A DNA stretch of 44,541 bases from a virus. Under the pieces are notes generated by a model. The model did no database searches, was not told the origin of the DNA, and saw only the letters and a list, made by a program, of their open reading frames with translations. Positions 3,602-24,387 of the stretch are shown here, piece after piece. Both the position numbers and the translations under genes were made by a program. The first letter of the stretch is position 1. The number at the start of each line of letters is the position of its first letter. The DNA lies in IMG/VR virus record IMGVR_UViG_3300017719_000024, positions 1-44,541 of that record; one strand, given 5' to 3'.

Positions 3602-3835
3602 TCAGTCTCTAATAAAATTATACTTTGCGTCACCTTTTTTCTCTTCTGGCTTATCTTCAGTCAGAACATCTGCGCCGTCAGACTCTTCCAAGTCCATCAT
3701 TTTTGGCTCATCAGCAATCATAACTGGTTCTGGCTCTGGTGCAGCAACTGGTGCGGGTGGCGTTGGTGCTGCTGGTGCTGGTGCTGTGGGTTCAGGTGAG
3801 GATTTTCCACCTAGCAATTCTCCGAATCTTGTCAT
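3602..3835 (-). CDS. Pro/Ala-rich low-complexity protein (77 aa)
   Basis: The start at 3835 (MTRFGELLGGKSSPEP) is chosen because a late-promoter core (3859-3866) lies 24 nt upstream. The middle is a low-complexity run of Pro, Ala and Glu (TAPAPAAPTPPAPVAAPEPE) and the C-terminus is acidic then Lys-rich (EDKPEEKKGDAKYNFIRD). A disordered linker or virion-associated protein is plausible. The late promoter suggests expression with structural genes. I know of no function. Confidence 0.7.
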   Translation of the reverse strand: MTRFGELLGGKSSPEPTAPAPAAPTPPAPVAAPEPEPVMIADEPKMMDLEESDGADVLTEDKPEEKKGDAKYNFIRD

Positions 3836-23695: not shown

Positions 23696-23767
23696 CTCCC
23701 CTTCCTGGGATCGAACCAGGGACCAAACGATTAACAGTCGTTCGCTCTACCGCTGAGCTAAAGAGGA
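23696..23767 (-). tRNA. tRNA-Asn (GTT)
   Basis: The 72-nt sequence TCCTCTTTAGCTCAGCGGTA... has acceptor stem TCCTCTT/AAGGGGA, discriminator G (usual for Asn), and anticodon stem-loop ACGACTGTTAATCGT with anticodon GTT at 23733-23735. Only 4 nt separate it from the tRNA-CAU, so the two are co-transcribed. CCA is not encoded. Confidence 0.95.
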
Positions 23768-23949
23768 TTGTCTTTTTTATGCGTCTCTAGAAGATATTCA
23801 ACAGTGTTTGCTACATCATTCATAGCATCACGAAGCATAGGTTGTTGACCAGAAGTTTGTTCTACTTTAGTAGTGCCATTCTTAAACTCCTCGCAAAGAG
23901 TCCAACGCCATTGACCCATACTATTAGAATACCAAAGATTGATCTTCAT
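23758..23949 (-). CDS. Conserved cyanophage-type hypothetical protein (63 aa)
   Basis: The product MKINLWYSNSMGQWRWTLCE... with AMNDVANTVEYLLE belongs to a small protein type I recall from cyanomyoviruses. Its stop (23758-23760) lies inside the 5' part of tRNA-Asn, so gene and tRNA overlap by 10 nt and are presumably separated by RNA processing. It begins about 11 nt after the tmRNA 3' hairpin. The function is unknown. Confidence 0.75.
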   Translation of the reverse strand: MKINLWYSNSMGQWRWTLCEEFKNGTTKVEQTSGQQPMLRDAMNDVANTVEYLLETHKKDNPL

Positions 23950-23960
23950 GGAACCTCTAG

Positions 23961-23985
23961 ATTTAAAGGGGGCATTACACCCCCC
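23961..23985 (-). terminator. Hairpin at the 3' end of the tmRNA coding piece
   Basis: GGGGG-TGTAATG-CCCCC followed by TTTAAAT on the minus strand. It could terminate or define the 3' end of the tmRNA coding piece; the U run is short, so termination would be partial and downstream tRNAs may be read through. Confidence 0.5.
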
Positions 23986-24228
23986 AGAACTACTTGGTTA
24001 ACAAGGCTAGTTTAACCCCGATCTCCCATTTAGGCAGTCGCGAGTTCGCGAGTGCGGGAGAATGCAACGATGTTATTCGCTGCGGTGTCAGATGTTTTTG
24101 CATCTATGGTTTGCTTATCCAAGCAGGTTTCAGTCACATTCCGTGTACCCTGTCGAAACCATGGCACCCCCAAGTAATGGAGGTGAGGGGAATCGAACCC
24201 CTGTCCAGAATGTCGATGATGCAACCTA
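23968..24228 (-). ncRNA. ssrA: Circularly permuted (two-piece) tmRNA
   Basis: Reading leftwards, the acceptor piece comes first: ACATTC (24208-24213), T arm AGGGG-TTCGATT-CCCCT, then CACCTCC and discriminator A (24178). After only TTACTT the coding piece begins at 24171 with GGGGGTG, then the conserved TGGTTTCGAC. GGGGGTG pairs with CACCTCC and contains the G3-U70 pair that alanyl-tRNA synthetase reads. GAATGT (24136-24141) pairs with ACATTC of the acceptor piece. A hairpin AGATG-CAAAAA-CATCT (24090-24105) precedes the resume codon GCG (24078-24080; GCA just before is an alternative). The tag ANNIVAFSRTRELATA ends at TAA 24030-24032. Permuted tmRNA is typical of marine picocyanobacteria. Outer ends are approximate. 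Confidence 0.9.
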
Positions 24229-24244
24229 TTCCACAAAAGTGGAA
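24229..24244 (-). repeat. Short hairpin between tRNA-Thr and tmRNA
   Basis: TTCCAC-TTTT-GTGGAA directly follows the tRNA-Thr 3' end and precedes the tmRNA acceptor piece. It may guide processing of the precursor. Confidence 0.5.
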
Positions 24245-24316
24245 AGCCCACAGTCGGATTTGAACCAACGACCTACGCTTTACAAAAGCGTTGCTCTACC
24301 ACTGAGCTATGTGGGC
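24245..24316 (-). tRNA. tRNA-Thr (TGT)
   Basis: The 72-nt sequence GCCCACATAGCTCAGTGGTA... has acceptor stem GCCCACA/TGTGGGC, anticodon stem-loop ACGCT-TTTGTAA-AGCGT with anticodon TGT at 24283-24285, and T arm loop TTCAAAT. The discriminator is T. CCA is not encoded. It is the first RNA of the operon that leads into the tmRNA. Confidence 0.95.
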
Positions 24317-24358: not shown

Positions 24359-24387
24359 AATATAGACTAGAAAAGGTTAGATGTCAA
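24359..24387 (-). promoter_or_regulatory. Sigma70-type promoter of the tRNA/tmRNA operon
   Basis: TTGACA (24382-24387), 17 nt, TATATT (24359-24364) on the minus strand. The -35 overlaps the last codons of the 48-residue gene. Start of transcription would be near 24352, 36 nt before tRNA-Thr. Confidence 0.7.

Follow-up and report, generated by a model that had tools for sequence, protein, structure and literature searches.

A permuted two-piece tmRNA gene in a T4-like cyanophage, with a probable 23-residue tag that differs from those of picocyanobacteria

The closest described relatives of the gene analysed here are the permuted tmRNAs of picocyanobacteria (RF01851, RF04321), with which it shares the gene order, a seven-pair acceptor stem with G3-U70, the T arm, the sequence TGGTTTCGAC, a joining helix, an A at position -4 before the resume codon, the ANNIV core of the tag and a 3' hairpin. 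It differs from them in having about half the host bit score, in its separate position in the tree, in carrying an insert and a hairpin around the resume codon, and in a tag that ends in ELATA and not in APVAA. The one-piece tmRNAs of other cyanobacteria (RF00023 matches) resemble it in their ANNIV core and, in one of 29 recognised tags, in a VLATA end, but these recognised tags have 14-17 amino acids and start at ANNIV. Phage-borne two-piece tmRNAs have already been published (PMC9004378), and the present gene is a further member of this described class. A survey of 18,146 phage genomes reports 53 two-piece tmRNAs, 50 of them marine or aquatic, lists AG-345-P14 as one of the tmRNA-encoding phages and describes a cyanobacterial tmRNA branch common to hosts and phages (PMC9004378); 79 phage tmRNA sequences are counted in PMC11915505, and phage entries are included in its tmRNA database. 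The two-piece tmRNAs of Melnitz and other marine phages are likewise phage-encoded and permuted, although that of Melnitz is reported to be of alphaproteobacterial type and to lie under a glutamine riboswitch (PMC9004378), an element of which an Rfam scan found none in the DNA analysed here. Phage-borne ssrA genes are also described in the mycobacteriophages Bxz1, Wildcat and others (PMC4131195).

Our window, i.e. the whole stretch of 44,541 bases that was analysed, is an IMG/VR virus record with genes for a T4-like baseplate hub, tail tube and tube cap. A permuted tmRNA of marine-cyanobacterial type had been proposed in it from the sequence, and such a gene is indeed present at 23968-24261 on the minus strand, to which all features below belong. 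A covariance model search (cmscan) matched RF01851 at 23969-24261 with 141.6 bits (gathering score 70; E 1.1e-38; model positions 1-288), the permuted tmRNA model RF04321 scored 87.2 bits against a gathering score of 47, and ARAGORN independently called a tmRNA at the same site. The RF01851 score and the ARAGORN call exclude a chance origin of the match.

The gene is read as an acceptor piece (24226-24178; its limits, of which the 5' end is approximate, are drawn from the sequence, RF01851 and covariation), a 6-nt intervening sequence TTACTT (24177-24172), presumably removed in the mature two-piece RNA, and a coding piece (24171-23968), which, according to RF01851 and the sequence, starts at G1 of the acceptor stem, presumably where RNase P cuts, and runs through the 3' terminal hairpin. 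Ahead of the acceptor piece, a 5' hairpin UUCCAC-UUUU-GUGGAA (24229-24244) is seen in the RF01851 alignment and in the fold. The acceptor piece contains one strand of the joining helix, the T arm AGGGG-TTCGATT-CCCCT (24202-24186), the acceptor 3' strand CACCTCC (24179-24185) and the discriminator A73 (24178); CCA is not encoded after the acceptor strand. The coding piece starts with GGGGGTG at 24171, has TGGTTTCGAC near its start, and closes with the hairpin GGGGGG-TGTAAT-GCCCCC (23968-23985; RF01851 and sequence). The acceptor stem comprises seven pairs, among them G3-U70. In all of this, namely the order of the pieces with the 6-nt spacer, the acceptor stem with G3-U70 and A73, the T arm and TGGTTTCGAC, the original prediction was correct.

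Comparison with related loci shows that the gene is present, how it is ordered, which stems are conserved, that its tag core is under selection and that it differs from the genes of the hosts. A usable core and tag were found in 86 of the 186 IMG/VR loci, and not in the other 100. Among 95 loci retrieved with a pattern for the acceptor piece, 31 were dropped: 11 cut by an end, 18 with other sequence after the motif, and 2 cyano-type genes missed because another frame was picked. By eye, these two, L229 and L306, appear to have the insert and an ELALA end, and to lack the insert and end in PSLV, respectively. In several virus contigs retrieved with the acceptor pattern (L258, L259, L261, L263, L265 and others), TTTCGAC is followed by a different sequence that looks permuted and lacks an ANNIV tag. 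Tags were recognised with the filter [NK]I[VI]xFxR. The resulting 95 usable viral rows include a second copy of the window (L001), left out where n=94, and also near copies, e.g. L189 beside S-CAM3, so that counts are not independent events. At least 120 host loci were found, of which 112 were used.

Across 47 distinct phage genes of the extended form (defined below), the joining stem in the register of Rfam and the T, acceptor and resume stems are paired in 98.0% of 1081 cells. Double changes occur in 8 pairs of these four stems, in 83 cells compared with 18.9 in shuffles, and pairing falls to 43-56% when the partner is shifted by one to three columns; the count of further pair types, 14, is not above that in the shuffles (mean 15.9), which ignore relatedness. 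The coding piece opens with GGGG in 95/95 usable phage genes, which places G3 opposite U70; here the search pattern required U70 and A73 of the relatives but left G3 free. The two pieces had been predicted to be joined by the pairing of GAATGT with ACATTC. The window sequence does permit this helix, with eight pairs and two further ones on the inner side, but as the joining helix it is not borne out by the 47 relatives, where pairing holds in 70.5% of its cells, three of its eight pairs fail in 25 to 34 sequences and one pair has double changes. With the same 5' strand, the Rfam register is paired in 99.3% of cells and has two pairs with double changes; comparison of the relatives thus indicates that it is probably this helix that joins the two pieces.

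The gene order on the minus strand is tRNA-Thr, tmRNA, a 63-codon open frame, and then tRNA-Asn and tRNA-Met. The tRNA-Thr (TGT; 24245-24316), called by ARAGORN directly upstream of the tmRNA, is absent from the Rfam tRNA matches of the window at gathering score. Upstream of this tRNA-Thr/tmRNA cassette lies a putative sigma-70-like promoter, TTGACA-17-TATATT (24359-24387), with 11/12 consensus bases and with hexamers identical in the relatives L021 and L010; five such sites occur in the region, compared with 2.1 in shuffles. This site is the sole hint about timing, and the proposal that the tmRNA is used late in infection is unsupported. The best match of the window tmRNA in the phage collection is that of Synechococcus phage Sf-FS3 (host WH8102), with 87.4% identity over the tmRNA. 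The 63-codon frame (window 23758-23949) lies between the tmRNA and tRNA-Asn, where Sf-FS3 has the hypothetical protein gene SfFS3_24.

Genes for SmpB and ClpP were found in none of 16 phage records, ten of which are IMG/VR records that may be fragments, whereas the same searches were positive in 10 and 12, respectively, of 14 control genomes. The function of the phage tmRNA would therefore depend on the host. As to its expression, processing, charging and use of SmpB, we infer the following course. The precursor is probably co-transcribed with tRNA-Thr and would be cut by host tRNA-processing enzymes into the acceptor piece and the coding piece, which the acceptor stem and the joining helix would keep together. 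After addition of CCA, the host AlaRS would charge the acceptor piece with alanine, and host SmpB together with the phage tmRNA would release stalled ribosomes.

The original prediction also held that the gene was taken from a host. A match to RF01851 above the cut-off is present in 84 of 101 host-family genomes; scores on this model are 277-326 bits for the main host copies and 76-159 bits for the 13 phage loci examined. In a tree where the identical L021 stands for the window gene, a branch with 100/100 support separates 90 host rows from 64 phage rows; this tree has no outgroup and its bootstrap is not fully settled. Moreover, the window gene has no 16-residue APVAA-like tag and does not group with the hosts. 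Because the phage scores lie far below those of the hosts and because of the 100/100 branch, the phage genes do not appear to be recent host copies; an origin from hosts is nevertheless plausible. The low scores could also be those of a passively carried or decaying copy, left e.g. at an old integration site and with a tag changed by drift, and some host genomes do have second, lower-scoring tmRNA copies (168.5, 94.3 and 65.9 bits). Such decay is difficult to reconcile with the compensatory changes in the paired stems, with the A at -4 found in 95/95 usable genes, and with the deep separation from the hosts. Further, lower-scoring tmRNA-like copies in host-family genomes (L376 3488-3782, L377 1030-1266 and L378 966-1112) were possibly left by mobile elements integrating at the tmRNA gene.

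In Escherichia coli the A at -4 (A86) is reported to be what chiefly sets the frame; A86C and A86U mutants had no measurable activity in a kanamycin assay, while in another assay of the same paper A86C still tags, in the +1 frame (PMC2481249). In picocyanobacterial genes a short run with the -4 A is followed by GCN AAC AAn AT. This layout is altered in 69 of the 95 usable phage genes, in which 21 nt separate the -4 A run from the ANNIV codons, compared with 0/112 picocyanobacterial genes among the matches listed. In all 69 of these extended genes the insert is 21 nt long and open in frame, as the definition of the form, which required this length and no stop, in part dictates. In the window it consists of seven codons, GCA AAA ACA TCT GAC ACC GCA (24081-24101), absent from the sampled host tmRNAs.

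The resume codon is probably the GCA at 24101, 21 nt upstream of the GCG at 24080 implied earlier, because the -4 A precedes the first of these codons in 69/69 extended phage genes and the second in 1/69; L288 has an A at -4 ahead of both sites. The corresponding counts in the acceptor-pattern subset are 64/64 and 1/49. The -4 A is also present in 112/112 hosts among the matches listed and in 26/26 non-extended phages, and it is kept in all 95 usable phage genes, from which genes without a recognisable tag had been removed beforehand; no locus found solely by the search pattern that imposed the -4 A is in the gene set. We therefore infer that translation would probably resume at GCA 24101, appending after the tmRNA-borne alanine the 23-residue peptide AKTSDTAANNIVAFSRTRELATA, which is also the tag predicted by ARAGORN; the corresponding frame of 23 codons and a stop, placed by ARAGORN and the -4 A test, occupies 24030-24101.

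This codon lies in a hairpin, AGAUG-CAAAAA-CAUCU (24090-24105), which includes the -4 A and the first base of the GCA. The hairpin folds at -4.2 kcal/mol in the window, with 0/200 shuffles as good; the fold of the relative L005 has -4.8 kcal/mol. Hairpins over the first codon with stems of at least 4 pairs occur in 29/29 distinct segments from the extended form (13.6% with the downstream side shuffled), in 0/20 distinct host segments and in 2/12 non-extended phage segments, and two double changes separate the classes AGATG/CATCT and ATCTG/CAGAT. A hairpin ending 9 nt before the resume codon had been noticed earlier: the hairpin is real and ends 9 nt before GCG 24080, but this GCG is probably not the resume codon.

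The same tmRNA might nevertheless resume at GCG 24080 and append a tag of 16 amino acids, ANNIVAFSRTRELATA, with the upstream hairpin serving as a structural spacer. ANNIV would then open the tag as in the hosts, double changes at two pairs preserve the hairpin, and constraint at the protein level is weaker on the insert (pN/pS 0.68-0.72, compared with about 1.6 out of frame) than on the core. Pairing of the -4 A within a hairpin might, in addition, hinder its recognition, which counts against the GCA start; a helix around the resume codon has been suggested to block use of the A86C mutant in E. coli (PMC2481249). However, the -4 A is missing at the second site in 68/69 genes and kept at the first, as in the hosts, the 21-nt insert stays open in frame, and ARAGORN picks the first site; among 31 matches from broader cyanobacteria, two have G at -4 and two are not tag-like. 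We regard the start at GCG as unlikely, and the tag is described below as resuming at GCA 24101.

Tags with the insert recur in the phages Sf-FS3, S-SSM7, S-CAM1 and S-CAM3 and in the single-cell record AG-345-P14, and the pattern of the AGATG-class insert is absent from 400 host-family genomes, the ATCTG class lying outside that pattern. In three relatives (L188, L191 and L228) the insert reads ANNIDTA ahead of ANNIV, which suggests that the start of the tag was duplicated in these relatives. On the tree, the extended label requires four changes, two of them forced by starred branches. Since the extended form does not occupy one side of a branch, a single insertion is not the simplest reading of this tree, and the insert has probably been gained, lost or recombined on more than one occasion.

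The tag core ANNIVAFSR is under protein-level purifying selection, judged from its pN/pS of 0.18 (26 distinct sequences of the acceptor-pattern subset), compared with 1.5 and 2.6 when the two alternative frames are read; over the codons not fixed by the tag filter the value is 0.30. The subset was used here in place of the full set, whose value of 0.17 is biased, one search pattern having required the tag core. Such selection bears on two other explanations of the gene. The phage RNA could be a decoy or inhibitor that titrates SmpB or competes with the host tmRNA, a role put forward for the short DS6A phage form; this form, or a similar molecule, is reported to inhibit tmRNA (PMC4131195, PMC11915505). 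A decoy would need neither the full coding piece, which is kept, nor a tag core selected as protein, and we consider this role very unlikely. Decay of a passively carried copy agrees with the last four tag codons being weakly constrained (pN/pS 0.71; 28 distinct sequences) but not with the selection on the core, and we give it hardly any credence.

The C-terminal part of the tag differs from that of the hosts. Among the matches listed, 112/112 host tags have 16 amino acids and end in AA, 108 of them in APVAA, and 30 further host loci, which may overlap with these, all end in AA. The window tag, in contrast, has 23 amino acids and ends in ELATA. The phage tags (n=94), 14 to 31 residues in length, end in AA (30), TA (25), AV (16), LV (12), TV (10) or PA (1), so that 64/94 have ends other than AA, compared with 0/112 picocyanobacterial tags among the matches listed; AA ends are found in 22/64 tags of the acceptor-pattern subset. 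A C-terminal valine, present in 38/94 phage tags, has no counterpart among the sampled hosts. Another class of phages has a 14-residue tag ending in TAVAV, without the seven-codon insert (L016, L019, L271, L275, L292 and L295), and the tag of S-CBWM1 (L145), which lies outside the core pattern and is non-extended, reads ANKIVAFHRQAVSCA by eye.

Since the last four codons are weakly constrained, drift fits these differences as well as diversification does. The codons for the C-terminal part of the tag also form an H5-like hairpin within the tag frame, TCGCG-AACT-CGCGA in the window (24038-24051). Its arms change together in several lineages, not in all (TCGCG/CGCGA, TGACG/CGTCA, TCGCC/GGCGA, TCGCT/AGCGA), and part of the amino-acid change is therefore tied to RNA structure.

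Compared with those of the hosts, the phage tags thus appear to be rewritten, many being longer through the insert and many being differently ended, and this may change the fate of the tagged proteins. The idea that they are plain dead degrons is tempered by the AA ends kept in 30/94 phage tags and by the broader cyanobacteria, whose 29 recognised tags end in VA (16), AA (12) and, in one case, VLATA; given this last tag, LATA may be an ordinary degron. In E. coli circuits, not in cyanobacteria, an AAV end is reported to be degraded more slowly than LAA (PMC9382460). It is tempting to speculate that trans-translation in cyanophages keeps the release of ribosomes and changes the proteolysis signal, i.e. 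that a lengthened tag whose first codon lies in a structured region and which ends in ATA, VTA, ATV, VAV or ALV is read more slowly by the host Clp proteases or sends the tagged proteins elsewhere. We put this forward tentatively and hold it to be rather doubtful. If it were true, the phage would free ribosomes stalled on degraded mRNAs and at the same time spare its partial proteins the usual degradation route of the host.

In our opinion, the window most likely contains a working two-piece tmRNA gene of a T4-like cyanophage that resumes at GCA 24101 and comes from phage lineages which diverged from the picocyanobacterial tmRNA and whose tag was rewritten; these lineages would have gained the seven-codon insert and a new C-terminus. 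The sampled host tags are almost fixed, and phage tmRNAs keep the parts for ribosome release and vary the tag, which makes them a natural experiment that separates rescue from degradation. Should the phage tags prove to be poor ClpXP substrates, it would mean that phages want ribosome rescue and not protein degradation. In the openly available papers searched, we found no comparison of cyanophage and host tags, no rewritten tag and no resume hairpin, and none of six tag strings searched for occurred in the papers covered.

These genes also bear on phage annotation. Within the stretch compared, a tmRNA is labelled in none of the seven annotated phage records examined (an eighth carries no annotation). 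Four of these seven have a hypothetical protein gene annotated over the tmRNA: S-SSM7 (L003 3004-3222), S-CAM1 (KU686193; L004 2974-3099) and two S-CAM3 records (L006 2959-3099 and L146 959-1099). Other RNA elements were seen in the same collection. In a 92 kb virus contig the tmRNA lies inside an array of 19 Rfam tRNA matches (L160 3640-7232), with an Rfam match to the abiF RNA at 3640-3676, and S-CAM1 has a wcaG RNA motif (L004 5566-5662; 83.5 bits) near tRNA-Gly.
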